Of a stretch of 59,557 bases of DNA, positions 70 through 20,034 are shown piece by piece. The translations under genes were made by a program, and so were the position numbers. The notes below the pieces were generated by a model. The model ran no database searches and was not told the origin of the DNA. It saw only the letters and a list, made by a program, of their open reading frames with translations. Every line of letters starts with the position of its first letter. The stretch's first letter is position 1. The stretch comes from Alphaproteobacteria bacterium (GTDB taxonomy: Bacteria > Pseudomonadota > Alphaproteobacteria > UBA2966): the NCBI GenBank assembly GCA_021296255.1, contig JAGWAU010000007.1:1-59557 (forward strand), written 5' to 3'.

Positions 70-185
70 GCCTTTAAAAGCGTGTTGGTGACTGGGACGG
101 AGTCCACTTCGCTCGGCTGCTTCCGATGGTCTCGGAACGGGTCGCGCGGGATCGAGATTGCGGGAAGGCGGACGGTAACAGAACG

Positions 186-2246
186 ATGGCTTGCCGACTG
201 GGAATCGACGTTGGCGGGACGTTTACCGATCTCCTTCTGTTCAACGGTGGCACCGGCGAGATTCACCTACTGAAAACGCCGTCGACTCCGCAGGATCAGT
301 CCGTCGGCATTCTCACGGGCGTTCAGGATCTCATTTCCCAGACCAAAGTGCGGCCTGCCGACATCCAGGGACTTCTCCATGGCACGACGGTATCGACCAA
401 CATCGTGCTGGAGGAAAAAGGAGCCAAGGTTGGCCTCCTGGTGACGGAGAACTTCGAACAGATACTTCATCTGGCGCGCTCTCAGACTCCCGGCCCCCTC
501 GCCGGTTGGATCGTCATGCAAAAGCCGGATCCCTTGGCCGACCTCGAACTGACGCGGGGGGTCAAGGAGCGCACGAACGCGCGGGGCGACATCGTGACAC
601 CGATGGACGAGGCGCACGCCCGAACCATGATCCAGGAGCTGGTAGACGGCGGCGTCGAGTCGATCACGGTGTCGCTGCTGCATTCTTATGCCAACCCGGC
701 CCACGAACAGCGGTTGAAGGCGCTCATCCGGGACGCTGCGGGCGACATCCCGGTGTCGCTCTCTTCCGAGATCCTGCCCGAGTTCCGCGAATACGAACGC
801 ACGCTCGTCACCGTAATGAATGCCTACGTGGGCCCCAGCATGCGCCGCTATCTCAGCCGTTTCGAGGAGAAACTACGCGGCGTCGAGTTCTCGCCCCACG
901 TCAACATCGTGCGCTCGGACGGCGGGCTGATGAGTGTCGCCCGTGCTTCCCAGTCTCCGGTGCACACGATGCTGTCCGGACCGGCCGGCGGCGTGTCGGG
1001 GGCGGCCTTTCTTGCCGGCCTCGCGGGCCATCCCAAAGCCCTCGGGTTCGATATGGGCGGGACGTCGACCGACGTCTCTCTAATCCAGGAAGGCAAGCCG
1101 ACGATCTCGCGCCAGACGAGCCTTGGCTACTATCCGATCAAGGTTCCTTCCGTCGAAGTGCACAGCGTCGGTGCCGGTGGGGGATCGATCGCTCACGTGC
1201 CGATGACGGGGGCACTACGGGTCGGCCCGGAAAGTGCGGGCGCCGTGCCCGGCCCGGCATGCTATGGACGCGGCGGTGACTCCCCGACGGTCACCGACGC
1301 CAATGTGGTGCTCGGCCGCCTGCCTCCCAGCTTGTTGGGGGGCGATATGGCCCTTGACGCCAAGGCGGCCGAGGAGGCGGTCGGGAAGATTGGCCGGGCG
1401 CTGGGGCTTGATCTCCATCAAGCGGCTCAGGGCATCCTCGACATCGTCAACGAGAACATGTTCGGCGCGTTGCGCCTGGTCACGGTGCAAAAAGGTCTCG
1501 ATCCCCGTGATTTCGCACTGGTGGCCTTCGGCGGCGCCGGTCCGTTGCACGGGAATGCAATGGCCGCGCTCGCCGGTTGCTACCCCGTGATTGTACCCCC
1601 AACGCCCGGCGTGCTGTCTGCGCTCGGCTTCCTGTACTCCGACGTCAAGAACGAATTCGCGCAAACGTTCGTGCGCAATATCGACGATATCGACCCTGGC
1701 CAAGTCAACGACATCCTGACACGGCTGGGGCGCGAGGCCCGAACCTGGCTTCAGGAGGAGGACATCTCGGAGCAGAACCAGGAGCTCCAGTACGAGGCGG
1801 ACGTGCGTTACTTCCGCCAAGGCTACGAATTTTCGCTCGAAGTCGACCCGGGATCGTTGATGAACGGGGGCTTGCACGACCTGGAGATGCGCTTCGGAAC
1901 GGCGCACGAAAGGCTTTACGGTTTCAAGCTCGAACAGGCCGTGGAGCTTGTCAACCTACGGGCTGTCGGTACGGGCCGCGTGGACAAGGTTGAGTTTCCG
2001 GAGTTTCCACTTGAGGATCGCGATCCGTCCGCGGCCATTCTTGAGCAGCACGGGGTCTATTTCGGCGGCAATGCCGAGCAGACCGTTATCTATGACCGCA
2101 GCAAGCTCCGTGCGGGCAACCGGATCACGGGTCCCGCCGTTGTGACCCAGAAGGATTCGACCACCATCATTCACCCTGGCCATACCGGGGAGGTCGATCA
2201 GTATCTCAACATCCTGCTTCGCCCTGACAACGACCAATTACATTGA
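186..2246 (+). CDS. hyuA: hydantoinase/oxoprolinase subunit A (HyuA), copy 1
   Basis: This is an ATP-dependent hydantoinase/5-oxoprolinase family A subunit of 686 residues, a usual length. Members use ATP to open (or, in acetone/acetophenone carboxylases, to carboxylate) small substrates together with a B subunit. The first ATPase-fold phosphate loop is at residues 6-15 (GIDVGGTFTD) and the second at about 287-298 (GFDMGGTSTDVS). The glycine-rich GAGGGSIA and PGPACYGRGG motifs follow, then the C-terminal domain. The frame is open back to 126, but the ATG at 186 puts GIDVGG at the normal distance from the start. The gene ends 13 bases before its B-subunit partner at 2260. The substrate (hydantoin, oxoproline, N-methylhydantoin or another cyclic amide) cannot be told from the sequence. 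Confidence 0.9.
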   Translation: MACRLGIDVGGTFTDLLLFNGGTGEIHLLKTPSTPQDQSVGILTGVQDLISQTKVRPADIQGLLHGTTVSTNIVLEEKGAKVGLLVTENFEQILHLARSQTPGPLAGWIVMQKPDPLADLELTRGVKERTNARGDIVTPMDEAHARTMIQELVDGGVESITVSLLHSYANPAHEQRLKALIRDAAGDIPVSLSSEILPEFREYERTLVTVMNAYVGPSMRRYLSRFEEKLRGVEFSPHVNIVRSDGGLMSVARASQSPVHTMLSGPAGGVSGAAFLAGLAGHPKALGFDMGGTSTDVSLIQEGKPTISRQTSLGYYPIKVPSVEVHSVGAGGGSIAHVPMTGALRVGPESAGAVPGPACYGRGGDSPTVTDANVVLGRLPPSLLGGDMALDAKAAEEAVGKIGRALGLDLHQAAQGILDIVNENMFGALRLVTVQKGLDPRDFALVAFGGAGPLHGNAMAALAGCYPVIVPPTPGVLSALGFLYSDVKNEFAQTFVRNIDDIDPGQVNDILTRLGREARTWLQEEDISEQNQELQYEADVRYFRQGYEFSLEVDPGSLMNGGLHDLEMRFGTAHERLYGFKLEQAVELVNLRAVGTGRVDKVEFPEFPLEDRDPSAAILEQHGVYFGGNAEQTVIYDRSKLRAGNRITGPAVVTQKDSTTIIHPGHTGEVDQYLNILLRPDNDQLH

Positions 2247-2259
2247 TGGACCCGAACTC

Positions 2260-4566
2260 ATGACAGACCTCAACCCGCCGAGCAAATCGGTTTCCCTGGA
2301 TGACCTTCTGAGAGCCAACAAGGACCAGTTCGACCAGCTCTTCGCCACGCAAGTGAGGGAAGTGGGGCTGGTCGACGTCAGTCACCGCCCCGCGACAGAG
2401 GAGGATCTCATGTCGCCGAGTATGCGGGCGTGGCACGACGGCGACGGCGAAGATGTAACGGCGTTTCTCAACACGCGTTTTGGGTCCGATTGGTCGTCAG
2501 AGGTCGTCGAGCACAAGGTTGAGCGCGGCGCGGTGACCGTTCTTTGCAAACTGACCGTCGACGGCGTCTCGAAGATGCAGTTCGGCTCGGCTCGTGCGAA
2601 CGGCGACGAAGGCAAGGCCTTGCGGCACGCGACCAACCAGGCCCTGAAAGCCTGTGCCGCGATGTTTGCTGAAGCGGCTGTGCCCGTGGGTCCGCCTGCG
2701 GCGCCTACGCCGGAGGAACGGCTGGAGGGGCAGGGACGGGAGATGCTCGACGCCCCGGCACCCCGTGCGCCGCGCCCGGCGGAGCGTCCCGGCACGCTTG
2801 ACACGATCACGCTCGACCTCATTGAGAACGCCCTCCGCAACGCCCGTCACGAAATGGACGCGGTGCTGTTCCGCTCGGCCATGTCCCCGGTTATCCGGGA
2901 ACAGCACGATGAATTTCCGATGATCACGGATGGCAAGGGGCGCATGATCGTGGGGCAGTTCGGCTCCTATATCCCGGAGATGTTGAAGGAGCAGACCTTC
3001 CGGCTCCTCCCCGGCGACGTGATTCTGCAGAGCGATCCGTTCAAGTGCGGCGGCGCCATCAGCCACATCAACGACTGGATGGTGCTGGTGCCGATCTTCT
3101 ACGAGAACGAGGTCATCGGCTTCAGTTCGATGTTCGGGCACATGATGGACGTGGGGGGGCCCGTGCCCGGCAGCATGCCGACGGCGGCGACTTCGGTGTT
3201 CGGCGAAGGCCTGCGCATTCCACCCATTAAGATCTATGACGGCGGCGCGCTCAATAAGGGTGCGCTCGACCTCATCATGAATAACACCCGCACCCCGGAG
3301 ATGAACTTCAGCGATCTCATGGCGATCATCGCGGGCTGCAGGACTGGCGAGAAGCGCGTGATCGAGATCTGCGATCGCTTCGGCAAGGATATCTACCGCC
3401 AAGCATGCGAGGCGCTGCTGGAGCGCACCAATCGCGCTATGCACCAGCTAATCGTGCAGAATCTGCCTGAGGAGCCACAGTCGTTCGAGGATTACGTGGA
3501 CGACGACGGTCTTGGCAACGGGCCTTTCAAGCTCAAGCTGACCGTCTGGCGCGAGGGCGAGCACGCTTATTTCGATTGGACGGGCACATCGCCCCAGGCC
3601 CCGGGGCCGATCAACTTCTACCTCCACGAAGGCATGTTCAAGATGTTCATCGGGGTCTACATGATCATGGTGTTCGACCCCCAAATCCTGTTCAACGATG
3701 GTTTCTACGACCTGATCCACGTGACCCTGCCCAAGGGCTCGCTTGTACATCCCAACTTCCCGGCACCTCTCGGCTGTCGGACCCATGCGCTGTCCCGCCA
3801 GTTCGACGTTCTGGGCGGTGCGCTCAGCAAGAAGGCTCCTGAAATGGCGACCGCTGCGGGCTACGGATCGAGTCCGCATTTCCTGTACTCGGGCACCGAC
3901 GCAGACGGCCGCCAGTTCCAGCTCATGGAGATTCTCTACGGCGGTATTCCCGGCCGGCCGGTTGGCGACGGCATGGACGGGCATTCCTGGTGGCCGCTGT
4001 TCGAGAACATCCCCAGCGAATACCTCGAGTGCTACTACCCGATGCTGATCGAGAGCTACGGCAGCATCTCGGATACCGGCGGCGCGGGCCTCCATCGCGG
4101 CGGCAACGGTGTGGAGAAAGTCTACCTGTTGCTCGAAGAGGGAGAGATCTCCATCCACGACGATCGGCATGAATCGCAGCCCTGGGGCATCTTGGGCGGG
4201 GCGCCCGGCGCCTGCTCGGAGAAGTGGTTGGTACGCAAGGACGGGACGCGCGAGCCGCTCCCCTCCAAGGTCGACAATGTGAAGGTGCGAAACGGAGACC
4301 GCATCGTCTTCCGTACGGCGGGCGGCGGTGGATGGGGGGATGCGCTCGAGCGTGAATCCGTGAAGGTCCGTAACGATGTCGCGCGCGGTCTGCTGTCGCG
4401 TGGGGCGGCGCGGGAGAGCTACGGCGTTGTCGTCTCGGAGAACTTCGATGTCGACGAGACGGCGACGCGGGATTTGCGAGAAACCATGCGGGCTGGACGG
4501 CCGCCGTTGCCCTTGTTCGATTTTGGCAGGCAACCGTCGTGGGGCGGAACCACCGCTTCTGCGTAG
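2260..4566 (+). CDS. hyuB: hydantoinase/oxoprolinase subunit B (HyuB), copy 1, with N-terminal accessory domain
   Basis: This is the B subunit partner of the upstream hyuA, 768 residues, longer than the usual 520-600. The HyuB domain runs from about residue 179 (GTLDTITLDLIENALRNAR) to near the end, with the family motifs SAMSPVIREQHD, GGAISHINDW and TAGGGGWGD. Ahead of it lie about 65 residues of unclear nature and a compact alpha/beta-looking domain (about 66-140, including FGSDWSSEVVEH and VTVLCKLTVDG). A Pro/Ala-rich linker (141-178) then leads into HyuB. The same small domain is found at the C-terminus of the second HyuB (21964-24150). Its function is unknown; the size and strand pattern recall dsRBD or Rad52-like folds, which is inference only. 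The following gene starts 108 bases downstream. Confidence 0.9.
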   Translation: MTDLNPPSKSVSLDDLLRANKDQFDQLFATQVREVGLVDVSHRPATEEDLMSPSMRAWHDGDGEDVTAFLNTRFGSDWSSEVVEHKVERGAVTVLCKLTVDGVSKMQFGSARANGDEGKALRHATNQALKACAAMFAEAAVPVGPPAAPTPEERLEGQGREMLDAPAPRAPRPAERPGTLDTITLDLIENALRNARHEMDAVLFRSAMSPVIREQHDEFPMITDGKGRMIVGQFGSYIPEMLKEQTFRLLPGDVILQSDPFKCGGAISHINDWMVLVPIFYENEVIGFSSMFGHMMDVGGPVPGSMPTAATSVFGEGLRIPPIKIYDGGALNKGALDLIMNNTRTPEMNFSDLMAIIAGCRTGEKRVIEICDRFGKDIYRQACEALLERTNRAMHQLIVQNLPEEPQSFEDYVDDDGLGNGPFKLKLTVWREGEHAYFDWTGTSPQAPGPINFYLHEGMFKMFIGVYMIMVFDPQILFNDGFYDLIHVTLPKGSLVHPNFPAPLGCRTHALSRQFDVLGGALSKKAPEMATAAGYGSSPHFLYSGTDADGRQFQLMEILYGGIPGRPVGDGMDGHSWWPLFENIPSEYLECYYPMLIESYGSISDTGGAGLHRGGNGVEKVYLLLEEGEISIHDDRHESQPWGILGGAPGACSEKWLVRKDGTREPLPSKVDNVKVRNGDRIVFRTAGGGGWGDALERESVKVRNDVARGLLSRGAARESYGVVVSENFDVDETATRDLRETMRAGRPPLPLFDFGRQPSWGGTTASA

Positions 4567-4674
4567 GGTTTGGATTTGAGACGGATACGTCTTGCACGGT
4601 GAGTGTTGTGGCGGGGAGGATCGGATTCCAAATGCCACGGCAATAAGGATAAAGCGAAAGAAGGTGCAGGGATA

Positions 4675-7491
4675 ATGCTGGAAATTGGGATTGCGCTGGC
4701 CGTCTCGGCGATCGTCGTTATCGCCATCCTCTACATTATCTCCATCTGGGTTTATAAACGCGCGCCCGCGAACATGGGATTCATACGAACGGGTTTTCTC
4801 GGTACCAAGGTGTGCCTGGGCCGTGGCGCCATCGTGTTGCCCGTATTCCATGAAGTGAGCTGGATCTCGCTTGAAACGATCAAGCTGATTGTCAGCCGCT
4901 CGCGGGAGCAAGCAGTTCTGACTTCCGACAAGATCCGGGTGGACACCGTCGCCGAACTCTACGCGCACGTCGGCAGGACCGAAGAAAATCTGCTGACCGC
5001 GAGCCGCAGCCTGGGCGACAAGACCTTCGATGCCGAACAGGTGCGCAACCTGCTCGAGGCGAAAGTCGTCGGCGCCATTCGCAGCTATGCGGCGACAAAG
5101 ACCCTCAATGAACTGCACGAGAATCGGGACACCTTTGCCCAGCAGATCAAGGAGTCCGTCCTCGACAGCTTCGAGGCCAATGGCCTCGTACTCGAGGAAG
5201 TGACCATCGTGACGCTGGAGCAGTCCGGCAAGGACTACTTCAAGTCCGACAACGTATTCGACGCTGAGGGCCTGAAGATCATCACCGAGATCACGTCCGA
5301 CGCGCGGCGCAAAGTTCATGACACCGAGAAGCGCACCACCGTCGCCATCCGTCAGAAGGACCTCGACACTCAGCTCGAGCTGCTGGAGATCGAACGCGAG
5401 GAGGCGTTCGCGCGGGCCGGTCAGGACAAGGCCGTTGCCAACGAGCAGGCCCTGCAGCTCGGCCAGAAGCAGATCTACATGCTGGATCAACGCAAGGCGG
5501 TCGAGGAGAAGGAAATCCAAAACGAAGTCGTTCTGGAGCAGTTGCGAACCGACCGTGAGATCGCCATCACCGAGGAAGCGCGCAAGCGCGAAAGTTCGGA
5601 CATCGAAAAGACCCTGAAGCTCGAGCAGGAACGTCGTGACAAGGAAATCGCGCTGATCGCCAAGGCGCGGGAGGAGGAACTCACCAAGATCCAGCGCAAC
5701 CTGGCGCTCGAGAAAGCGGAGAAAGACCGCGAAATCGAGTTGATCGACAAGGCCAAGGAGCAGGAGCTTGCGGAGATCCGCAGGCGGCTCGCGCAGGAGA
5801 GTGCCGACAAGGACCGCGAGATCGAGCTGACGGCGAAGGAGCGCGAGCGACAGCGGGCCGAGATCGATCGAGCGACGGAGGTCCTGAAAGCCGAGGAGGC
5901 GGCCCGGGATGCGCGCCACCAAGCCGGGGAGGAGGTCTCGCGCTCCATGCGGCGGCGGGCGCTTGAGACGAGGCTTTCCATTCTCGAGGTCGAGAAGGGA
6001 GAAGCCTTCGCCGAGGCGCAGCAGGAGCGGGAAATCTCCGACGAGCGCGCCCGCGTCCTCAGCGAGAAACAGCGCTTCATTCTCGATCGCCGCCTGGAGG
6101 TCGAGCAGGAGGAAATAGACAAGGAACTTGCCATCGAGAAGGCCCGAATCCAGAAGGAAGCCTCCGTCATCGAGGAGACCAAGCTTCGCGAGGCCGCTGA
6201 CATCCGCCGTCAGCTTGCCCGCGAGCAGGAGGAGCGCGACCGCGAGATCGCCCTCGTGGCCAAGGCGGAGGAACTGGAGAGGGCCGAAATCCGCCGCCGG
6301 CAGAGCCAGGAGCAGGAAGATCGGGAGCGTCAGATCGTGCTCGTCGCCAAAGAAGAGGAACTGCGGCGCGCCGAGGTGCGGCAAGCTCTGGCCGTCGAGC
6401 TCGAAGAGCGCGAGCGGGAGATTCGGCTTATCGCCAAGGAGCAGGAGCGCGAACGAGCGGACATCCAGCGCTTCCTCGCACGTGAATTGGAAGAACGCAG
6501 CCGCGAGATCGCGTTGACGGAGAAGACGAAGGAGCTTGAGGAAGTCGAGGTCCAACGTCTCCAAACGACGGCCGAGAAGGAGCGGGCAGGACACGGTGTG
6601 GAATCGGTGCGCATCATTGCCGATGCCGAGCGCCAGAAAGAGATCGAGCGCATCGGCGCCGAGCAGGAGGCCGAGGCGCGCCGGATCGAGGAGGAGAACA
6701 ATGCCCAGATCTCGCGCATGCACATGATCACCCAGGCCGAGGCGCGCAAGCTTTCCGCCGAGCAGGAAGCGGAAGCGACTCTGACGCGGGCCCAGGCGGT
6801 GAGCGATGCCCAGAAGATCACGGCCGAGGGCATCGAACGCGAGGCGGGCGCACGGGGCCGGGCCGAGATGGAGATCGAGTCGCTGCGCGTAGTCAATACG
6901 CAGCGTCGCTTCGAAGCCGAGGCCACGGGTATCGAGGCGAAAGCCGAGGCGCTGGCGAAGTACAACGAGGCGGCCACGTTCCTCGAACTTGCCAGGCTGC
7001 ACATTGAGGCGGAACGCGACATCCATATTGACCAGGCCAAGGCCATGGGTAACGCCCTGTCAGGTGCGCAGATCCGCATGTACGGCGGCGGCGACGGTAC
7101 CGTCGACACGATCCGTGGGATGTTCACCCAGGGATTCGCGCTCGGCGAGATTCTCGAAGGCGTCGCCCAGTCGCTGCCCGAGGGCCTACGGGCCCGCTTC
7201 GCCGACAACGGCATCCGCGGTCTGTTCGGCCGGCCTTACCAAGCTGGTCAGTTTCGTGACTCGGTCGAGCTGTTGACGGGTATGGTGCGGTCGACGATGC
7301 GCACGCGGCGCGACCGGGACATCCCGTTCAGCCAGGCTCTCGATCGGCTGGCCGAGTACGCCGGTGATGACGAAGTGCAGGGCCGGGCGGTTGCGTTGCT
7401 GCGGGAGGCGAATGAGGGCGGCGTCTTCGACGACGTGCCGTTCGAGACCGTATGGGCGCTGATGCAGGCCATCGCCACGCCTTCCGACTGA
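4675..7491 (+). CDS. giant flotillin/SPFH-domain coiled-coil membrane protein
   Basis: This 938-residue protein has one N-terminal membrane segment (about residues 3-25, rich in I/A/V) followed by an SPFH/band-7-like region (about 30-220), as in flotillins. A long charged coiled coil extends to about residue 780, and the C-terminal tail is globular and flotillin-like (AKYNEAATFLELARLHIEAE). It is nearly twice the length of ordinary flotillins because residues 229-428 are duplicated at 429-638, each block carrying tandem 29-residue units. The start at 4675 is preferred over 4603 because the membrane segment follows immediately and AAGGTG lies about nine bases upstream. It sits between hyuB and an ABC ATPase on the same strand. 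A scaffold role in a membrane microdomain for the transporter or enzymes is inference. Confidence 0.82.
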   Translation: MLEIGIALAVSAIVVIAILYIISIWVYKRAPANMGFIRTGFLGTKVCLGRGAIVLPVFHEVSWISLETIKLIVSRSREQAVLTSDKIRVDTVAELYAHVGRTEENLLTASRSLGDKTFDAEQVRNLLEAKVVGAIRSYAATKTLNELHENRDTFAQQIKESVLDSFEANGLVLEEVTIVTLEQSGKDYFKSDNVFDAEGLKIITEITSDARRKVHDTEKRTTVAIRQKDLDTQLELLEIEREEAFARAGQDKAVANEQALQLGQKQIYMLDQRKAVEEKEIQNEVVLEQLRTDREIAITEEARKRESSDIEKTLKLEQERRDKEIALIAKAREEELTKIQRNLALEKAEKDREIELIDKAKEQELAEIRRRLAQESADKDREIELTAKERERQRAEIDRATEVLKAEEAARDARHQAGEEVSRSMRRRALETRLSILEVEKGEAFAEAQQEREISDERARVLSEKQRFILDRRLEVEQEEIDKELAIEKARIQKEASVIEETKLREAADIRRQLAREQEERDREIALVAKAEELERAEIRRRQSQEQEDRERQIVLVAKEEELRRAEVRQALAVELEEREREIRLIAKEQERERADIQRFLARELEERSREIALTEKTKELEEVEVQRLQTTAEKERAGHGVESVRIIADAERQKEIERIGAEQEAEARRIEEENNAQISRMHMITQAEARKLSAEQEAEATLTRAQAVSDAQKITAEGIEREAGARGRAEMEIESLRVVNTQRRFEAEATGIEAKAEALAKYNEAATFLELARLHIEAERDIHIDQAKAMGNALSGAQIRMYGGGDGTVDTIRGMFTQGFALGEILEGVAQSLPEGLRARFADNGIRGLFGRPYQAGQFRDSVELLTGMVRSTMRTRRDRDIPFSQALDRLAEYAGDDEVQGRAVALLREANEGGVFDDVPFETVWALMQAIATPSD
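5359..5958 (+). repeat. internal protein duplication, block 1 of the SPFH coiled coil
   Basis: These bases encode residues 229-428 of the SPFH protein. A 65-residue leader (QLELLEIEREEAFARA to QLRTD) is followed by four 29-residue units that begin REIAITEEARK, KEIALIAKARE, REIELIDKAKE and REIELTAKERE, then a 19-residue tail. The block aligns without gaps to block 2 through the leader and four units. Confidence 0.85.
5959..6588 (+). repeat. internal protein duplication, block 2 of the SPFH coiled coil
   Basis: These bases encode residues 429-638. A 65-residue leader (RLSILEVEKGEAFAEA to EKARIQ) is followed by five 29-residue units that begin KEASVIEETK, REIALVAKAEE, RQIVLVAKEEE, REIRLIAKEQE and REIALTEKTKE. 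Spacing is identical to block 1, with one additional unit. Confidence 0.85.
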
Positions 7492-7508: not shown

Positions 7509-8627
7509 ATGGCGGAGCACGACGTCGTCCTTGAACACGTCGACAAGACCTTTCCGGGCGGTGTCCGGGCGGTCATCGACTTCAACGCCGAGATTGAGCA
7601 TGGCGAATTCGTTGCCATGCTGGGGCCGAGCGGCTGCGGCAAGACCACGACCCTTCGCATGATCGGCGGGCTCGAGGAGGCGACCTCGGGGAGGATCTAT
7701 ATCGCCGGGCAGGACGTCACCGACCTGCCGCCGTCGCATCGGGACACCGCGATGATGTTCCAGAGCTTTGCGCTCTTTCCTCACCGGACCGTTCTCCAGA
7801 ATGTTGAGTTCAGCCTAAAGATGAAAGGCATGGAAAAGGTTGAGCGAGCGCGTCGCGTCTGGGAAATGGTCGAAATGGTCGGACTCGGGGAACTCGCGCA
7901 TCGCCGGCCGCACGACCTCAGCGGTGGACAGCAGCAGCGTGTGGCGCTCGCCCGGGCGCTGATTGGGCGGCCGACGGTGCTGCTGCTCGACGAGCCCTTG
8001 GGCGCGCTCGACTTCAATCTGCGTCAGACCATGATGGTGGAGCTCAAGAAGATCCAGCGCGAGCTTGGCATCACCTTCATCATGGTCACGCACTCCCAGC
8101 AGGAAGCGCTGTCGATGGCCGACAAGGTCATCGTCATGAGCGACGCGGTGATCCAGCAGACCGGCACGTCTCGGGAAATCCACGAGCATCCACGCACCAA
8201 GTTCGTAGCCGAGTTCATCGGCAACAACAATCTGCTTAAAGGCACGATCAAGTCGCGCAGCGGCTCGGTGGTGTTCGTGGAGTCGGAGGACAATCTCTTC
8301 TACGTGCGCATTCCCGAAACCATGCCGCACGTGGAGATCGGCAAGGAGACCTACTTCTCGGTCCGTGCCGATCTCATGCACACCGGAGATCACCCGGATA
8401 TGGCCAACCGGGTCGAGGGGTCCTATGTGACCACGGAGTTCATGGGTTCCCTCGAGACCAACGTGTTCGAGGTGGGGTCGGACACCATCGTGCATGTGGA
8501 GCAGCACCGAAGCGTCGCGGACCATGTTTACCAGATGGGTGAAAAGGAGACAATCTGCTGGCCGGCGGACGCCGGCGTGCTATTGGAGACCGTGACCGGC
8601 GTGGCGGAGCGGGCGGAGGCGGAATAG
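7509..8627 (+). CDS. ABC transporter ATP-binding protein, polyamine/opine (PotA) type
   Basis: This 372-residue ATPase would energise import of a small organic cation or amino-acid-like compound. It shows Walker A GPSGCGKTT (residues 39-47), a Q-loop (MMFQSFALFPH), signature LSGGQQQR, Walker B VLLLDEPLGALD and the switch histidine in VTHSQQEA. A C-terminal TOBE-type domain follows from about residue 235. No permease is adjacent. The matching two permeases and periplasmic protein are on the opposite strand at 15185-18409, beyond the aconitase X genes, and are the obvious partners. The start ATG is 17 bases after the SPFH stop, so co-transcription is likely. Confidence 0.88.
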   Translation: MAEHDVVLEHVDKTFPGGVRAVIDFNAEIEHGEFVAMLGPSGCGKTTTLRMIGGLEEATSGRIYIAGQDVTDLPPSHRDTAMMFQSFALFPHRTVLQNVEFSLKMKGMEKVERARRVWEMVEMVGLGELAHRRPHDLSGGQQQRVALARALIGRPTVLLLDEPLGALDFNLRQTMMVELKKIQRELGITFIMVTHSQQEALSMADKVIVMSDAVIQQTGTSREIHEHPRTKFVAEFIGNNNLLKGTIKSRSGSVVFVESEDNLFYVRIPETMPHVEIGKETYFSVRADLMHTGDHPDMANRVEGSYVTTEFMGSLETNVFEVGSDTIVHVEQHRSVADHVYQMGEKETICWPADAGVLLETVTGVAERAEAE

Positions 8628-8726: not shown

Positions 8727-10004
8727 ATGAATCTTACCGATGCCGACAAGCGGAAACTCGACGGCGGCGAAGGGCCGGCCGTTCAGCATGCCATGGAGCA
8801 CTTGCTCAAGATGGGCGAGGCCTTTGACGCCGAGGAGATGGTGGACCTTCACACGGTGCATGTGTTCTCGGACTACCGCACGGTCGGCGATGGCGGAGTT
8901 AACTTCTACGAGAACCTGGTCGACCTGGGTGGCCACATTTCGCTCCCGTCCTCATGTGAACCCATGTCCATGGATCGTAATCACAATGACCAGTTCGACT
9001 GGCCGGAAGGGTACGAGGAAGGTCAGCAGAAGATTGTCGACGCCCTCGCGACGCTCGGCGTTCAGCCCACCTTCTCCTGCACTCACTATCTGAACGCCAA
9101 CGTACCCAAATTCCAGTCGAACATGGCCTGGGTCGAAGGTAACGCAACGGGGTTCGCCAATACCGTGATCGGGGCCCGCGGCAACCGGGAGGACGCGGTT
9201 ACCAGTCCGCTGGCCGGTATCGCCCGACGCATCCCCAAGTACGGCATGCTGGACCCCAAGAACCGGACCGGTGATTGCTTGGTTGAGATCGATCCGAACC
9301 TCATAGAGCGCATCGGCGGTGACGGGCGGCGCACGGCGGACTACGAGGCGCTCGGCGCTGTCATCGGCGACTTCGCGTACGACCGTATCCCGGTGGTGAC
9401 GGGCCTGCCCGACTACATGCAGAACGAAGAACTGAAGGCCTTGGTGACCGCTTGTTCGCCGGCCATGACGACGACGTTGATGCTGCTCGTCGGCATCAGC
9501 CCGGAGGCGCGAACCCTTGAAGAGGCATTTGGCGGCAAGGTACCGAAAGATGTAGACACCATTCAGGTCACCGAAGATGACCTGCGGGAAATGTATGGCC
9601 AGCTTGAGCAGACAACCAAGGAGGATGTCGACATCGTCATCTCCGGCTGTCCCTTCAAGACCTTGCAGGAGGTCCAAGAGCTGACCGAACAGCTTGGAGA
9701 GCAGAAGGTGGCGGACGGCGTCAAGTTCTACATATTCACAGACCGCATCACCTTCAACATGGCGAAGGACATGGGACTGGTGGAGAGGATCGAGGCCGCT
9801 GGCGCCCTTCTCACCACCGATACCTGTAGCTGGTGCATGCCTGTCGAGACCATGTTCGGCCCCGACAAGGTCATCGCCTCCGACAGCATGAAGATGCGAC
9901 GCCTGCTGGCCGGCGACGGCAAGCCGACGTGGCGCTACGGCACCCTCACCGACGTGGTGGATGCCGCCGTCACAGGTAAGTTCAAGCCGAGCCGTTGGAA
10001 TTAG
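8727..10004 (+). CDS. aconitase X large (catalytic) subunit, copy 1
   Basis: This 425-residue protein is the DUF521/aconitase X catalytic subunit. Bacterial two-subunit members include cis-3-hydroxy-L-proline dehydratase (product delta1-pyrroline-2-carboxylate), while archaeal relatives dehydrate mevalonate 5-phosphate. Visible candidate Fe-S/active-site cysteines are in SSCEPMSMD, SGCPFKT and DTCSWCMP, and the conserved EGNATGFANTVIGARGNRED stretch is intact. A GGGAGG ribosome site precedes ATG 8727. The small subunit follows at 10044, and the pair is duplicated at 10520-12254. A proline-like substrate fits the neighbouring N-demethylase-type flavoprotein, but the exact substrate is inferred. 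Confidence 0.85.
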   Translation: MNLTDADKRKLDGGEGPAVQHAMEHLLKMGEAFDAEEMVDLHTVHVFSDYRTVGDGGVNFYENLVDLGGHISLPSSCEPMSMDRNHNDQFDWPEGYEEGQQKIVDALATLGVQPTFSCTHYLNANVPKFQSNMAWVEGNATGFANTVIGARGNREDAVTSPLAGIARRIPKYGMLDPKNRTGDCLVEIDPNLIERIGGDGRRTADYEALGAVIGDFAYDRIPVVTGLPDYMQNEELKALVTACSPAMTTTLMLLVGISPEARTLEEAFGGKVPKDVDTIQVTEDDLREMYGQLEQTTKEDVDIVISGCPFKTLQEVQELTEQLGEQKVADGVKFYIFTDRITFNMAKDMGLVERIEAAGALLTTDTCSWCMPVETMFGPDKVIASDSMKMRRLLAGDGKPTWRYGTLTDVVDAAVTGKFKPSRWN

Positions 10005-10043
10005 TCCTGGCACGATCAAGCCCGGGAACCGAGGAACTGAACT

Positions 10044-10472
10044 ATGAGTGAAACGATCACCCTGCACGGACATCCCGTCAGCAGGGGCGTCGGCGAGGGC
10101 GAAGCCTTGGTCTGCGATAAGCCGTTGAGCTTTATCGCCGTCGGCATCAGCAACGAGGAAGGAATCGTGCGTATCGATAAGCACCCTCTGAACGGCCAGT
10201 CGATCGCCGGCAAGGTGCTGATTTACGACACCGACATCTTTTCGACCGGTGGTGCCCTCAGCATGTACACCAAGAAGACGATCTACAAGACGGCACCCGC
10301 TGCCGTTATCTGGCGCAAAGCCCATAACATCGGGGCCGGCGGCACCATCTACGCCGGTGTCCCCTCGATGGACCAGATCGAGGAAGGGTTGCCCTGGGAT
10401 TTGATCAGCACTGGCGACTGGGTGAAGGTCGACTCCGAACAAGGCATCGTCGAAGTGACGAAAAAGTCCTAG
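10044..10472 (+). CDS. aconitase X small (swivel) subunit, copy 1
   Basis: This 142-residue DUF126 swivel-domain protein forms the second half of the two-subunit aconitase X. It carries the small-subunit motifs ITLHGHPVSRGVGEGEALV near the N-terminus, VLIYDTDIFSTGG in the middle and WVKVDSEQGIVEVTKKS at the end. GAGGAAC lies just ahead of the start. The gene is 39 bases downstream of the large subunit and belongs to the same operon. Its duplicate at 11826-12254 has the same length. Confidence 0.87.
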   Translation: MSETITLHGHPVSRGVGEGEALVCDKPLSFIAVGISNEEGIVRIDKHPLNGQSIAGKVLIYDTDIFSTGGALSMYTKKTIYKTAPAAVIWRKAHNIGAGGTIYAGVPSMDQIEEGLPWDLISTGDWVKVDSEQGIVEVTKKS

Positions 10473-10519
10473 GACCGGTCTTCCAGGTTCGGTTGCGGTC
10501 GTTACGGGGAGGCGAGTTC

Positions 10520-11796
10520 GTGCGGCTTAGCGATTCCGACAAACGCAAGCTCGACGGCGAGGAAGGACCGGCGGTCCGGCACGCCATGGAGCATCTCGTG
10601 AAGATGGGCGGGGCGTTCGAGGCCGAGGAGATGGTGGACCTGCATTCCTGCCATCTGCTCTCGGACTACCGCACCATGGGCGAGGGCGGGCTCGAGTTCT
10701 ACGAGCAACTCGTCGAGTGGGGCGGCATCATGCGCGTGCCGACGACTTGCGATCCGATGTCCATGGACATGAAGAACATGGATAAGTTCGACTGGCCGGA
10801 GGGGTACCCGGAGAAACAGACGCGCATCTCGGACGCCTTCCGCGACCTCGGTGTGGCACTTACCTTCTCGTGCACGCCGCACCTCGGCCATAACGTACCC
10901 AAGTTCGGCGAGAACCTGGCTTGGGTCGAGGGAAATGCGACGGGTTACGCCAATTCGGTGCTGGGAGCCCGCGGTAACCGGGAAGACAGCATTACGGCGC
11001 CGCTCGCCGGCATCGCCGGGCGTACGCCCAAGTTCGGTCTACTGGATCCGGAGAACCGCGTCGGCGAATGTCTGTCGAGATCGATCCGAACCTCATGGAG
11101 CGGTTGGGCGGCGACGGCCGTCGGGCTGGCGATTTTTCGGCACTGGGAATGATCATCGGCGATTTCGCCTATGACCGCGTTCCGGTGGTCACGGGCCTCC
11201 GTCCGAACCTGGAGACCGAAGAGCTCAAGGCCATGTGCTCCGCGTGCTCGCCGGCCCTGATCGGGACACTGATGTTCCTGGTCGGCATCAGCCCGGAAGC
11301 GAACACCGTCGAAGAGGCGTTCGGAGGCAAGGTGCCGAAGGACGTCGATCGGCTGTGGGTCGACGCCGACACCATGCGGCAGTCCTACGAACAGCTCTCC
11401 AACACCACCAAGGAAGACGTCGATGTCGTCATGTCGGGTTGCCCCTTCAAGACCATCTACGAGATCCAGGAAGTGGTGGAGCAGCTCGGCGACGACAAGG
11501 TCAAGGAAGGCGTGAAGTTCATCATTCACACCGACCGGGTTACCTATGTTCTCGCCGAGCACATGGGCTTGGTGGACAGGATCGTCGATGCCGGCGCGCT
11601 GCTGACCACCGACACCTGTGAATACTGCATGCCGATCGAGAACATGTACGGTCCCGATACGGTCATCGCTGCCGACAGCATGAAGATGCGCCGCCTAGTC
11701 GCTGGGGAAGGCAAACCGACGTGGCGCTACGGGACGCTGACGGACTGCGTCAACGCCGCGATCACCGGCAAGTTCCGCCCCACCCATTGGAACTGA
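10520..11796 (+). pseudogene. aconitase X large subunit, copy 2, interrupted by a one-base frameshift
   Basis: The reading frame from GTG 10520 (GGGGAGG seven bases upstream, matching copy 1) encodes residues equivalent to the first half of copy 1, through ENRVGECL. It then leaves frame and stops at 11152. The remainder continues in the next frame from about 11074 (VEIDPNLMERLGG) to the stop at 11796. Copy 1 reads gat tgc ttg gtt gag atc here, while copy 2 reads gaa tgt ct- gtc gag atc, so one base is missing near 11072-11073. No slippery heptamer is visible. All other parts, including the cysteines in TTCDPMSMD, SGCPFKT and DTCEYCMP, look functional. The break is therefore either very recent or a sequencing/assembly error. 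Confidence 0.8.
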
Positions 11797-15184: not shown

Positions 15185-16012
15185 CTAGCGCGCTCTCCTG
15201 TAAAGGATCGTGTAGATGATCACGAACAACGCGATCATCAGCAACGAGAAGATCGTCGAGGCCGTGCCAAGGGCAAACAGGGTCGGGCGGATGCGCTGGG
15301 TCATTGAGGCGTTGATATCGAGCGGCAGGGTATTGAATTCACCGGCCAACAAGGTCGTACGCGCGAACTCGTCGTAGGAGAGCGTGAAGCCGAACAGGCC
15401 TGCGGCGACGACCCCCGGCAAGATAAGGGGGAGGGTCACCTCCTTGAACACGGTCCATTCGTCGGCCCCCATGTCCCGGGCCGCCTCCTCGAGCCGGCTG
15501 TCGAAACGGTTGAAGACGGCCATCATGACGAGAAAGCCGAACGGCAGGGTCCATACTACATGGACGCCGAGCGCCGAGGACCACCACGCCGGCGGAATGC
15601 CGACTTCCTTCAAGAGCGTGGCGAGGCCAAGGCTGAGCAGGATTCCGGGCACCATCAGCCCGGCCATGACGGTGTAGAACAACACACCCGAACCCGGGAA
15701 CCGCTTGCGGAAGGCCATGGACAGCATGGTCGAGAACAGCGCCGTGAAAGCCATGACGATGAGTGCCAGGACAAGTGAACGCAATAGGGCGCCCTGCAGA
15801 TCGCCGACCGTCGAAGGCTCGATCAGCTTCTCCCACCAGTAGAGACTGACGCCGCGCATGGGGAAGCTGGTGCCGCCGCGACGCCCTTGGAACGACAGCA
15901 CGAACATGGCGATCATCGGTCCGTAGATGAAGATCAGAAAGAGTACGAAGTAGACGCTGTAGCCCGTCTTGATCCAGGCCCGCCGCCGCCGCTCCCGCGT
16001 CCACCGCCGCAT
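15185..16012 (-). CDS. ABC transporter permease, PotC type
   Basis: This 275-residue inner-membrane permease has about six transmembrane segments, starting with VYFVLFLIFIYGPMIAMFVL. The cytoplasmic EAA loop is visible as LEEAARDMGADEWTVFKEVTLPLILPG, split here around the conserved EAA...G motif. It is the second permease of the transporter encoded at 15185-18409. It begins one base after the stop of the preceding permease gene and is followed 22 bases later by the flavoprotein gene. Confidence 0.88.
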   Translation of the reverse strand: MRRWTRERRRRAWIKTGYSVYFVLFLIFIYGPMIAMFVLSFQGRRGGTSFPMRGVSLYWWEKLIEPSTVGDLQGALLRSLVLALIVMAFTALFSTMLSMAFRKRFPGSGVLFYTVMAGLMVPGILLSLGLATLLKEVGIPPAWWSSALGVHVVWTLPFGFLVMMAVFNRFDSRLEEAARDMGADEWTVFKEVTLPLILPGVVAAGLFGFTLSYDEFARTTLLAGEFNTLPLDINASMTQRIRPTLFALGTASTIFSLLMIALFVIIYTILYRRAR

Positions 16013-16013
16013 G

Positions 16014-17006
16014 TCAGAGCTCCTTCCGGATGTCGACGATTTTCAGGATGACCACCACACCGATCATCATCGACAGCATCAGCATGAGCGCGTTCACGGC
16101 AGCGAAGGGATAGTTGGCGATGGCGTAGTAATTGAGGATGACGGTGCCTGTCGTGCTGGTCTTGCCGCCGTAGACCACGACGGCGGTCGCGAACTCACCC
16201 ATGATCATCACGAAGATGAAGATCATGCCGATGGCGACGCCGGGCAGGGACAGCGGTCCGATGATTTCCCGGAAGATCTGGAAGATCGAAGCGCCCATGT
16301 CGCGGGCCGCCTCGAGGATGGCCTGATCGATCTTGGCGAGTGAGAAGAATATCGGGCCGACGCACAACACGACGTAGAGCTGCACGAGCGCCATGGTGTA
16401 GCCGAATTCCGAGTACAACAGGATACCGATAGGCTTGTCGATAATGTCGAGGCCCATCAGCATCTTGTTGAACAGGCCGCGTCGCCCCAGCATGGGGATC
16501 CAGGCCACGGCCCGGATGAGATAGCTCGTCCAGAAGGGCACCATGCACAAGAGGAAGAGCGCGAGCTGCCACTTGAAGCTCTTTACCTGCATCGCTAGGA
16601 AATAGGCGATCGGATAGCCGATGACGAGACACAGAACCATCACGACCAAGGCGAAGTAGAATGTCGATCCCAGCGACCGGATGAACACGCTGGGGCGCAG
16701 GAAGTTGTCGTCGCCCGGGATGAAGAACCCTTGGTTGTGGAAATACTCGCCGTAATGATGGAGCGTGAGGTCCGGCTCCATGCCGTATCCGCTCGACGTC
16801 CAGAAGCTGAAGACGACAATGCTGATCAACGGGATGACGAGGAATACGATGAGCCAGATCGCCGCCGGTGCGATCAACCATCCCGTGGGGAACCCGGCTT
16901 CGCGCCTGAATTGCTTTGCCTCGCCGGCAGTCGTCGGTGGGGTCGGCTGCGAGCCGATGAGGCCTCCGTGGTGTCCGTTAACGACTTGGTCGACCATCAG
17001 TGTCAC
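16014..17006 (-). CDS. ABC transporter permease, PotB type
   Basis: This 330-residue permease begins with a cytoplasmic N-terminus of about 45 residues. Its first membrane segment (APAAIWLIVFLVIPLISIVVF) is followed by about five more. The EAA loop AILEAARDMGASIFQIFREI contacts the ATPase at 7509-8627 in the proposed model. It is encoded between the periplasmic binding protein and the second permease. The long N-terminus may mean that a slightly later start is used. Confidence 0.88.
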   Translation of the reverse strand: MTLMVDQVVNGHHGGLIGSQPTPPTTAGEAKQFRREAGFPTGWLIAPAAIWLIVFLVIPLISIVVFSFWTSSGYGMEPDLTLHHYGEYFHNQGFFIPGDDNFLRPSVFIRSLGSTFYFALVVMVLCLVIGYPIAYFLAMQVKSFKWQLALFLLCMVPFWTSYLIRAVAWIPMLGRRGLFNKMLMGLDIIDKPIGILLYSEFGYTMALVQLYVVLCVGPIFFSLAKIDQAILEAARDMGASIFQIFREIIGPLSLPGVAIGMIFIFVMIMGEFATAVVVYGGKTSTTGTVILNYYAIANYPFAAVNALMLMLSMMIGVVVILKIVDIRKEL

Positions 17007-17122: not shown

Positions 17123-18409
17123 TCAGGCGCTCAGGAACTCCGTCCAACGCTTCACCAGGTAGTCGTTCTCGTCCATAAGCGAGTTCCACACGGCGATGTT
17201 CTTGAAGCGGTCCCAATAGGATCCGCCGTCGCGAATCTCGCCTTCCGGCACGATAATCGTATCGAATGGATCCGGCAGCTCCTTGGCTGCGGGCTTGCCC
17301 ATGTACCAATAGTCCCATTCCTCGGGCTCGAGGAATTTCTTGACGTTGTCAGGCACCGACATGTAGTAGCCCTGCCGCGCCACGAACGCGCCCGCCCAGC
17401 CGTCGAGCCACCAGTTGACGTACTTATAAGCCTGATCGAGGGCCTTGCCGGTAACCTTCGCCGAAATCGAGAGACAACCGTGCCAGCCGCGCATGCCTTC
17501 CTTGGGGAAGGCGTAAATGCATGGCACACCTTCGGCCTTGATGGCGGTCACGGCCGGAGACCACATGCTTTCGAGGACGACCTCGCCGCTCACCATCAGG
17601 TTCACGGACTGGCCGAAGGTCTCCCAGAATGCCCGGAAATGACCTTCTTTCTTCTTTTTGATCAGGAAATCGATGAGGAAGTCGATTTCCTCCCGGGTCA
17701 TGTTGCCCTTGTCCTTGAACTTGTAGAGACCCAGGGCCTCGACGCCCATGGCTGCGTCCATGGTGCCGATCTGGGGGACGTTCAAGAGCGCGACCTGGCC
17801 CTTGAAATCGTCGCTGAACAGCTCGGCCCAACTGTCGATCTTCCGTCCCGTCTCCTCCGGGTTGTAGCCCATCGAATCGGCGTTGTGCCAACCGGGCACC
17901 GCCGTGATGTATCGCGACGGGCCCTCGACGCGGTCGCCATTCTCGTCGACCCAGAGGTGCCGGAACGGAGCGTCGCCCTGACCGACATTCGAATCAGGGG
18001 TGAGCCTGCCCGTCTTGCACAGGTCCGTGACCGCATCCCACTGTTTGATACGCTTGGTATCGATGGGTTGCCACACCTTCGCCGGGACCATGACGTCGAA
18101 GTCGTTGTAATAGCCTTCGGCGACCTCGTACTGATCGTTCTGGTTCAGCATCTTGCCGAACATGGCGCCATAACCGAGCGCTTGGCCGCGAATGGGAAAT
18201 CCGAGGTCCTTGGAAGCCTGTCCCTGGATTTCGTTGATGATACTGACACCGAGTCCGATCGTGCGGGTTGGGTCGGCCGCGCGGACGATGTTGGGAAAAC
18301 CCGTGATCGCGCCGGCGACCGCGGTTCCCGCCGCCGTGCCGACGAACTGGCGGCGCGTGAGACCCGCCTTACGGACCGATGTGGGCGTCTTTTGCCGTTT
18401 CTTGGCCAT
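17123..18409 (-). CDS. Tat-exported ABC substrate-binding protein (PotD/PotF-like)
   Basis: This 428-residue extracellular solute-binding protein is first in the operon. The N-terminus carries a twin-arginine signal (TRRQFVG at about residues 19-25, followed by a hydrophobic AGTAVAGAITG segment). The mature part resembles spermidine/putrescine- or opine-type receptors, e.g. IDSWAELFSDDFKGQVALLN and the C-terminal WNSLMDENDYLVKRWTEF. Export of a folded protein suggests early ligand or cofactor binding. The ligand is unknown; the neighbouring demethylase and aconitase X point to a methylated or hydroxylated amino acid, or a cyclic amide. Confidence 0.87.
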   Translation of the reverse strand: MAKKRQKTPTSVRKAGLTRRQFVGTAAGTAVAGAITGFPNIVRAADPTRTIGLGVSIINEIQGQASKDLGFPIRGQALGYGAMFGKMLNQNDQYEVAEGYYNDFDVMVPAKVWQPIDTKRIKQWDAVTDLCKTGRLTPDSNVGQGDAPFRHLWVDENGDRVEGPSRYITAVPGWHNADSMGYNPEETGRKIDSWAELFSDDFKGQVALLNVPQIGTMDAAMGVEALGLYKFKDKGNMTREEIDFLIDFLIKKKKEGHFRAFWETFGQSVNLMVSGEVVLESMWSPAVTAIKAEGVPCIYAFPKEGMRGWHGCLSISAKVTGKALDQAYKYVNWWLDGWAGAFVARQGYYMSVPDNVKKFLEPEEWDYWYMGKPAAKELPDPFDTIIVPEGEIRDGGSYWDRFKNIAVWNSLMDENDYLVKRWTEFLSA

Positions 18410-18582: not shown

Positions 18583-20034
18583 GTGAGCATACTGATCAAG
18601 AATGGTCGTGTCGTCACGGCGTCGGACGACTATCACGCCGACATCTTCGTCAGCGACGAGACCGTCGATGTGATCGGCCGTGACCTCGTGATCGAGGCGG
18701 ACACCGTCATCGACGCGTCCGGGAAGCTCGTGATCCCCGGCGGCGTCGATCCCCACACGCACATGGAGATGCCGTTCGGCGGCACGCATACTTCGGATAC
18801 ATTCGAGACCGGCACGAAGGCGGCAGCGTTCGGCGGCACCACTTGTATCATCGACTTCGCCATACAGTTCAAAGGTGAATCGACCGTCGAGGCGCTCGAC
18901 AAATGGCATGCCAAGGCCGCCGGGCAGGCCTCCGTCGACTACAGCTTTCACATGATCATCACCGACATGCCGGAGCACCGGACGCCGGAGATGCGCCGCC
19001 TTTCGGACGAAGGGGTGACCAGCTACAAGCTGTTCATGGCGTATCCCGGCGTGTTGCTGTCCGATGACGGCACGATTTTCCGCGCGATGCGCAAGGCGGG
19101 GGAAGACGGGACGCTCGTTTGCATGCATGCGGAGAACGGCGTCGTCATCGATGAGCTGGTCAAAATTGCGTTATCGGAAGGCCATGTCGAGCCCAAGTAC
19201 CACGCTTTGACGCGCCCCACCCGATTGGAGGCGGAGGGTGTACACCGGGCTCTCTCCATCGCCGAGGTAGCCCGCGCGCCGGTCTATATCGTGCACCTCA
19301 GCAGCTACGACGCGCTTCAGGAAATCCGCTTGGCGCAGGCGCGCGGCGTGATGGCGCACGCGGAGACCTGCCCGCAGTATCTCTTGCTCGACGTCTCGGC
19401 CTACGACGAGGCGGGGTTTGACGGTTCCAAGTTCGTGTTGACGCCGCCGCTTCGCGAGAAATGGAATCAGGAGGAACTGTGGCGTGGATTGCGCGGAGGC
19501 TCGCTCCATGTGATCTCCACCGACCACTGCCCGTTCTGCGTGAAGGAGCAGAAGGAACTCGGCCGCGACGACTTCAGCAAGATCCCCAACGGCGGCCCGG
19601 GCGTCGAGAACCGTATGAGCCTGATCTACCACTATGGTGTCGGCAAGGGGTACATCGACCTCAACCGTTTCGTCGAGTTGACCTCTACGTCGCCCGCCAA
19701 GATCTTCGGCCTGTTCCCGAAGAAGGGGACCATCGCGGTCGGCAGCGACGCCGACCTCGTCATCTTCGATCCCGAGCACGAAGAGAACATCAGCTACTAC
19801 AACCCCCGGACCCACCACATGAACATCGACTACACCGCTTACGAGGGTTTCGCCGTAAAGGGGTTCACGGAAACCGTGTTGTCACGGGGCAAGCTGGTGA
19901 TCGACAAAGGTCAATATGTGGGCCGCCCGGGTTATGGTCGGTTCGTCAAGCGCGGTCCCTACGGCGGTATCTACAAGCCCGAAGCGGCCGGTAACATCAC
20001 CACGCCCGCCGCCAGGCGCCTCGCTGCGGAATAG
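18583..20034 (+). CDS. hydA: dihydropyrimidinase / D-hydantoinase (cyclic amidohydrolase)
   Basis: This 483-residue metal-dependent amidohydrolase would open cyclic diamides such as hydantoins or dihydropyrimidines. Its metal centre is complete: HTH at residues 58-60 in GVDPHTHMEM, the carboxylated lysine in TSYKLFMAYPG (K149), H182 in CMHAENG, H238 in IVHLSS and the aspartate in STDHCPF. The length is normal for the family. GTG 18583, with GGGGAGG eight bases upstream, is preferred over an upstream TTG. It stands alone on its strand, divergent from the transporter operon and near two HyuA/HyuB systems. The cell can thus open such rings both without ATP and, potentially, with ATP. Confidence 0.9.
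   Translation: MSILIKNGRVVTASDDYHADIFVSDETVDVIGRDLVIEADTVIDASGKLVIPGGVDPHTHMEMPFGGTHTSDTFETGTKAAAFGGTTCIIDFAIQFKGESTVEALDKWHAKAAGQASVDYSFHMIITDMPEHRTPEMRRLSDEGVTSYKLFMAYPGVLLSDDGTIFRAMRKAGEDGTLVCMHAENGVVIDELVKIALSEGHVEPKYHALTRPTRLEAEGVHRALSIAEVARAPVYIVHLSSYDALQEIRLAQARGVMAHAETCPQYLLLDVSAYDEAGFDGSKFVLTPPLREKWNQEELWRGLRGGSLHVISTDHCPFCVKEQKELGRDDFSKIPNGGPGVENRMSLIYHYGVGKGYIDLNRFVELTSTSPAKIFGLFPKKGTIAVGSDADLVIFDPEHEENISYYNPRTHHMNIDYTAYEGFAVKGFTETVLSRGKLVIDKGQYVGRPGYGRFVKRGPYGGIYKPEAAGNITTPAARRLAAE

Follow-up and report, generated by a model that had tools for sequence, protein, structure and literature searches.

A giant flotillin-family protein with a rod of 29-residue units, encoded between hydantoinase and ABC importer genes

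Why should a flotillin-family protein reach 938 residues, and why should its gene lie between hyuB, for subunit B of a hydantoinase/oxoprolinase, and the gene for the ATPase of an ABC importer? These questions are raised by a 59,557-nucleotide stretch of DNA from an alphaproteobacterium of the UBA2966 lineage (contig JAGWAU010000007.1 of GCA_021296255.1, forward strand), the whole of which we call the window. A first-pass annotation made from the letters alone had described the protein, encoded at 4675-7491 on the plus strand, as a flotillin expanded by a duplication built from 29-residue units. We find the units, gaps between orthologues that are unit-sized, a recent tandem duplication of one unit, a two-faced residue pattern within the unit and a fixed operon; that the unit number differs between relatives while the operon stays constant goes beyond the earlier description. 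The most likely role of the protein, argued by analogy with better characterized relatives as regards both assembly and cargo, is that of a tall cage or scaffold reserved for the importer.

A rod of 29-residue units

Self-comparison of the protein gives, as its two best diagonals, one at an offset of 29 that pairs residues 265-609 with 294-638 (345 residues, 34% identical, score 469) and another at an offset of 200 that pairs 210-399 with 410-599 (190 residues, gapless, 80 identical or 42%, score 402), whereas in 50 composition shuffles of residues 200-720 the best diagonal scored 113 (mean 76). The annotated repeats are thereby confirmed, and expansion by block duplication together with exact 29-residue units is borne out. 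The rod consists of two blocks, each made of a 54-residue leader followed by 29-residue units, five in the first and six in the second. The layout had been drawn before as a 65-residue leader with four and then five units, which is correct in outline but counts the divergent first unit of each block as leader. Likewise the duplication at offset 200 stands, but the gapless pairing covers 190 residues rather than 200, and the two blocks as then delimited are 200 and 210 residues long, the second having one extra unit. Seven units would span 203 residues (7 x 29), so that an offset of 200 leaves the blocks 3 residues out of register. Within the window protein the units share about 30-67% of their bases and the two blocks share 55%, and on account of this low DNA identity we regard the block duplication as old. 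The parts of the protein are as follows:

4675-7491, plus strand: gene for the giant SPFH/flotillin-family protein, 938 residues, starting at ATG 4675
4678-4752, plus strand: N-terminal hydrophobic helix, residues 2-26, a likely membrane anchor (from the sequence and an AlphaFold2 helix at 2-26)
4813-5217, plus strand: SPFH/Band_7 domain, residues 47-181 (Pfam PF01145, AlphaFold2 and Foldseek)
5302-5463, plus strand: leader 1, residues 210-263, the start of the rod, alignable to ordinary YqiK-type flotillins
5464-5898, plus strand: block 1, five 29-residue units, residues 264-408, the first unit divergent
5902-6063, plus strand: leader 2, residues 410-463, an internal copy of leader 1 (from the offset-200 diagonal)
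6064-6585, plus strand: block 2, six 29-residue units, residues 464-637, the first unit divergent
6862-7113, plus strand: flotillin-like C-terminal segment, residues 730-813 (Pfam Flot PF15975, below cut-off)
7114-7488, plus strand: extra helical C-terminal region, residues 814-938, matching no named family

The open frame spans 4603-7491 on the plus strand and opens at GTG 4603, but ATG 4675 is the likely start and is preferred because the methionine of an orthologue (L003) falls at the same aligned place.

The protein belongs to the SPFH/Band 7 superfamily and is of flotillin type, in agreement with the first-pass annotation; within the flotillin family it probably falls in the YqiK branch. 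Band_7 is the sole Pfam family found at E 0.001 (46.7 bits against a cut-off of 23.6), and with a profile built from 23 N-terminal parts human flotillin-1 is hit over profile positions 27-270 (E 2e-7); the window protein alone, searched with phmmer against solved structures, gave no match at E 0.001. Toward the C-terminus Pfam Flot reaches 19.1 bits at residues 730-813 against a cut-off of 27 (E 0.0015), and in orthologues it is found in the right place, also under the cut-off (22.8 bits in L022 and 14.7 bits in L012). Membership of FloT is rejected (NCBIfam NF058507, 34.2 bits against 700), and a C-terminal profile found no match among solved structures up to E 1. An AlphaFold2 run with 44 sequences, 16 close relatives and 28 more distant N-terminal fragments, predicted the SPFH head well, with a predicted local distance difference test score (pLDDT) of about 90 across much of residues 60-200. 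With this predicted model, on which the assignment of the SPFH fold rests, Foldseek gave the human flotillin complex 9bq2 as its top match (E 5e-10), followed by HflK/C, prohibitin, erlin and stomatin, with vault lower down, and the good-scoring matches in a viral structure library were mostly generic Band 7 proteins. Residues 1-300 align almost gaplessly with 19 YqiK-type flotillins. The Escherichia coli protein, which we take to be the one named YqiK, is 34% identical to the window protein and has 553 residues, so that the present protein, though longer as claimed, is 1.7 times its length rather than about twice the normal one; from the FDAEGL motif to the C-terminal strand motif the distance is 272 residues in E. 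coli and 605 here. The E. coli gene follows what is presumably a yqiJ-type gene, whereas the window gene follows hyuB.

Eight helical turns per 29 residues correspond to 3.625 residues per turn, and at a helix rise of 0.15 nm per residue a unit measures 29 x 0.15 nm, or about 4.3 nm. On a wheel of that pitch, drawn from the 11 unit positions of the window protein and its 23 orthologues, acidic residues lie at 0-12 degrees, alanine at 24-62, basic residues at 74-99, large hydrophobic residues at 111-136, acidic residues again at 148-223 and large hydrophobic residues again at 235-297, with basic residues between. When the nine canonical units are taken and the signal is summed over four residue classes, the two-fold angular component peaks, among pitches near that of an alpha-helix, at exactly 8 turns per 29 residues (36.6; p = 0.0003 in 20,000 permutations), and it is also present in the window protein alone (p = 0.0012); the one-fold component falls short of significance (p = 0.19). 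Short-range self-similarity occurs at offsets of 11 and 18, which add up to 29, and the 40 best self-offsets include none of the heptad values 7, 14 and 21. Both the offsets and the angular pattern lead us to reject a generic heptad coiled coil, as the first-pass annotation had done. It had proposed instead a defined superhelix or a lattice contact: the former is not indicated, eight turns per 29 residues being close to a straight, untwisted helix, and the latter is hinted at by the two-faced unit together with the unit-sized gaps described below. Over residues 200-790 a single proline, at 766, is present in all 24 proteins taken together, and 51% of the rod residues are charged. A helix flanked by neighbours on both sides requires two contact faces, whereas a two-stranded coiled coil needs one, and the pattern suggests helices packed side by side as they would be in the wall of a cage.

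Length series among orthologues

One scan of 84,980 species genomes gave the 23 orthologous loci, whose proteins were aligned with that of the window. Between residues 2 and 805 all gaps in this alignment are exactly 29 or 58 residues long: 1) two proteins (L012 and L017) have 29 additional residues after residue 558; 2) one (L015) lacks 29 at 530-558; 3) five (L018, L019, L020, L022 and L025) lack 29 at 335-363 and 58 at 514-571. Gaps of 1-3 residues and end truncations or extensions occur at the N-terminus and from residue 806 on. The unit totals are accordingly 11 in 16 proteins, 12 in two, 10 in one and 8 in five; the spacing of leader 2 is the same in the four length classes compared, and the orthologues that are complete at the C-terminus have 852-965 residues, L015 and L016 being cut there by their contigs. 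A crude calculation, which assumes uniform gap sizes of 1-58, puts the chance that all four gap sizes are multiples of 29 at 1.4e-6, and the independent gap events number 3-4, as the loss of 29 may be nested and common to L015 and the 8-unit clade. An assembly error, named by the first-pass annotation as what could undo the repeats, is rejected, for the repeats are present in 23 loci from other assemblies.

In the 12-unit form the extra unit copies its neighbour in 28 of 29 residues (L012) and in 83 of 87 bases (both L012 and L017), and it is missing in the close relative L016; from these sequences we judge that the form arose by a recent tandem duplication of 87 bp. In a tree built on residues 1-235 the 24 orthologues group apart from seven paralogues (support 100/100) and the 10-unit and 8-unit forms are joined (92/93), so that 11 units are likely to have been the starting state. 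A one-block ancestor was sought and none was found: the shortest orthologous form, with 8 units, retains both blocks, and the distant relatives examined for this purpose have other periods or none that is clear. Identity with the window protein drops to 65% among the orthologues. A sample of 398 genomes of the phylum contained no further orthologue (the three proteins that passed were the window's own and two 36% paralogues), and a search of the order of genome G015 gave one genome only.

Two further giants of the same family, L035 (in G006) and L036 (in G004), lie outside the 24 orthologues. They too are SPFH proteins of about 1000 residues with long regular rods, but these are built on a hendecad 44-residue (4 x 11) super-repeat in place of the period of 29, are two-faced at 44/12 residues per turn and show a significant one-fold component as well. 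The two proteins are separated by one internal gap of 44 residues, exactly one repeat.

The gene cluster and its distribution

The neighbours of the flotillin gene in the window are:

126-2246, plus strand: hyuA, hydantoinase/oxoprolinase subunit A (Pfam)
2260-4566, plus strand: hyuB, hydantoinase/oxoprolinase subunit B (Pfam)
7509-8627, plus strand: ABC importer ATPase, PotA-like, 17 bp past the flotillin stop
15188-16015, minus strand: ABC permease, PotC-like, same cluster
16017-16994, minus strand: ABC permease, PotB-like, same cluster
17123-18373, minus strand: extracellular substrate-binding protein, same cluster
18583-19977, plus strand: dihydropyrimidinase/D-hydantoinase, same cluster (NCBIfam TIGR02033, 600.9 bits against a cut-off of 393)

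These genes suggest a cluster for the import and ring-opening of cyclic nitrogen compounds in a marine-type bacterium. When they were traced by tblastn, hyuB was found immediately upstream of the flotillin gene in 23 of 23 loci (108 bp away in the window), hyuA upstream in all 19 loci with room for it, and the ATPase gene immediately downstream in all 21 with room; in seven more orthologous loci, which may overlap the 23, hyuB and the ATPase gene are present in every case. HyuA and HyuB are only 42-60% identical to those of the window in the 8-unit clade and in L023 and L024, while the ATPase keeps about 72% identity or more in all loci, and this difference points to the ATPase, rather than HyuA or HyuB, as the steadier partner of the flotillin. 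SPFH2 genes usually, though not universally, form an operon with an NfeD-like gene (PMC2636767), whereas here the partners are hyuB and the ATPase gene; no NfeD-like gene is among the direct neighbours, the rest of the genome not having been searched for one.

The flotillin also keeps company with the importer's binding protein across genomes. Among 385 genomes of the class, 11 passed a flotillin search at E 1e-55, one of them (G053) with a 40% paralogue, which leaves 10 orthologues. The binding protein matched in 42 of the same genomes, at 73% identity or more in 10 and at 50% or less in the other 32, and the 10 genomes with the close binding protein are the same 10 that have the flotillin orthologue. 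In 61 relatives the flotillin is present in six and the binding protein in five of those six. Twelve regions were read among the 32 genomes without the flotillin: no flotillin-like gene lies in any of these stretches, two have hyuAB, and in 10 the ATPase gene adjoins that of the binding protein. The flotillin clade differs in that its ATPase gene is directly behind the flotillin gene and not beside that of the binding protein. The organism's other flotillin-like gene (L002) is located outside the cluster. Two genomes of the window's own genus, G001 and G002, have neither the giant flotillin nor the cluster's binding protein, so that the module has been gained or lost within the genus.

Two other genes nearby deserve mention. 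A divergently oriented gene of 172 codons upstream of hyuA (unk5396; 4878-5396, minus strand, in L008) occurs in 18 of the 23 loci, a count that leaves out L018, whose weak match lies elsewhere; it matched no Pfam or NCBIfam family and possibly encodes a regulator. Farther downstream a second aconitase-X-like gene (10493-11796), which follows 8727-10472, is split into overlapping stretches at 10493-11152 and 11068-11796 that lie in different frames. The split looks like a frameshift or an assembly indel, and its first piece matches cis-3-hydroxy-L-proline dehydratase, below cut-off.

A cage wall and the alternatives

Human flotillin builds a wall that is a single layer of 44 parallel, side-by-side helices of 186 residues, held by charge contacts without heptads, in a cage 22 nm tall; the wall helices of the SPFH proteins compared in the same account measure 44-189 residues (PMC11260169). 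The flotillin-1/2 cage (9bq2 and 9l3g), which gives the best fold matches, shares with the present protein SPFH domains followed by a long, charged, heptad-free helix, but the rod here is much longer than 186 residues and is modular. Transporters inside SPFH domes also have a precedent, as stomatin encloses aquaporin-1 and a urea transporter (PMC12407830). In marine bacteria a flotillin gene is co-transcribed with that of a rhodopsin inside a catabolic cluster: in these FArhodopsin clusters, too, a flotillin gene of their own adjoins the gene for a membrane protein, across a 16-nucleotide spacer, and a PxpA-like oxoprolinase subunit is included, but their flotillin gene has 1,977 bp, a rhodopsin stands in place of the ABC importer, and the relevant part of the account mentions no repeat unit in the flotillin (PMC10308929).

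On these precedents, together with the unit-sized gaps, the two-faced pattern and the fixed operon, we propose an SPFH cage with a wall that gains height by courses of eight turns and that serves one importer, whose substrates would resemble hydantoins or lactams; we give this proposal about an even chance. The protein would be a membrane-anchored cage protein of the YqiK/flotillin kind, its wall helix lengthened by block duplication and tandem 29-residue units. Each added unit, with its eight full turns and about 4.3 nm, would return the same two contact faces to the same side, and with the faces so returned the wall could lengthen or shorten by whole courses while the packing of neighbours is kept. 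The helices would pack as a single-layer wall and, if that wall is built as in human flotillin, the cage would stand roughly 2-3 times as tall as the 22-nm cage of flotillin. It may enclose or scaffold the PotABCD-like importer, perhaps HyuAB too, and uptake of a hydantoin- or lactam-like compound would be coupled to its hydrolysis. A bolder form of the proposal, which strikes us as rather unlikely, is a membrane-seated reaction chamber with walls of protein: the number of eight-turn units would determine how tall the giant SPFH cage stands, and the cage would surround the importer's cytoplasmic face and HyuAB, so that hydrolysis of the cyclic amide brought in takes place in the interior, ahead of any release into the cytosol.

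Several observations weigh against the proposed cage. The predicted rod is broken: the AlphaFold2 helices run from 194 to 438, from 445 to 643 and from 657 to 761, confidence is low at 427-467 and 636-658, and there are breaks near 439-444 and 644-656 with pLDDT below 50 around both; with both junctions uncertain one straight wall is not established. Mean pLDDT was only 68.7 in this run and 58.2 in a first run with a shallower alignment of 23 close relatives. The large hydrophobic residues taken alone give a weak two-fold signal (p = 0.069; one-fold 0.26). As to the importer, 15 of the 23 loci have the first permease, 13 have the binding protein and 10 have the hydantoinase; four of the eight loci without the permease (L003, L015, L016 and L019) break off within the cluster or close to it, but the other four (L005, L012, L017 and L022) have at least 7 kb downstream of the ATPase gene, and the genome G006 has the flotillin without the binding protein. 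Constancy of an operon is, moreover, not contact, and tandem repeats yield unit-sized gaps through recombination even without selection.

This last point is the core of a different explanation, in which neutral tandem-repeat recombination acts on a long charged helix whose length has no set function, in an ordinary membrane-microdomain scaffold. The 87-bp tandem duplication of the 12-unit form, with its 83 matching bases, speaks for it, as do L035 and L036, with their difference of exactly one 44-residue unit, and the giant SPFH2 proteins of 800-1000 residues found elsewhere, whose length varies within groups (PMC2636767). Yet over residues 2-805 the 24 proteins show gaps of no other size even though identity drops to 65%, ongoing exchange is disfavoured by units that are only about 30-67% identical in DNA within the window, and the two-faced pattern of the unit is coherent and falls at the pitch that fits it; we consider this explanation possible but distinctly short of even. 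It is also conceivable that the flotillin does not touch the importer or HyuAB but is co-regulated with them because the imported compound or its products stress the membrane, and serves as a general membrane or protein-quality scaffold. More general tasks are on record for bacterial flotillins, among them the holding of unfolded membrane proteins (PMC11222466), and the organism's other flotillin-like gene sits outside the cluster; set against this, the giant orthologue occurs among the 385 genomes only alongside the importer (10 of 10), and the ATPase gene that lies 17 bp behind it is found beside its own binding protein in 10 of the 12 flotillin-free relatives, so that we hold such a role to be plausible yet doubtful.

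A fibrous membrane scaffold of segmented, two-stranded coiled coils or filaments, in place of a cage wall, would have its model in SF-assemblin. This is a eukaryotic protein that forms 2-nm filaments, is not known to have an SPFH domain and is built on a unit of four heptads plus a skip residue. Its alpha-helical rod is the only other one with a 29-residue repeat met in the literature searched (PMC6070942), and heptad self-similarity of its type is not found in the present rod. A content of 51% charged residues would suit a fibre of this kind; on the other side, offsets 7, 14 and 21 fall outside the 40 best while 11 and 18 are present, significance is reached by the two-fold signal (p = 0.0003) but not by the one-fold signal that a dimer core would give (p = 0.19), and the SPFH head matches cage-forming proteins. 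We regard such a fibre as quite improbable.

Giant flotillins as such have been known since 2009, when SPFH2 proteins of 800-1000 residues with expanded coiled coils were named, and with its SPFH head, strongly expanded coiled coil and 938 residues the present protein fits the description of the giant SPFH2b group; the part of that description concerned with these proteins does not mention a repeat unit, a unit-number series, a block duplication or a hydantoinase/ABC operon (PMC2636767). In the open-licence literature on flotillin/SPFH repeats, hydantoinase and oxoprolinase we met neither the 29-residue unit nor the unit-number series nor this operon, and the quantised unit and the hyuB-flotillin-ABC ATPase operon are apparently new. 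Orthologues with 8, 10, 11 and 12 units of equal length, in one operon and with one importer, form a natural test series for what sets the size of SPFH cages and what they contain: if the wall model is true, cage height should change in 4.3-nm steps with unit number, and the genes next door point to the candidate cargo. The two-faced unit could also serve as a design rule for straight, side-by-side helical walls. On the opposite strand an open frame of 1192 codons (3448-7026, minus strand) crosses hyuB and the flotillin gene; it is most likely spurious and due to the biased codons of the charged repeat.

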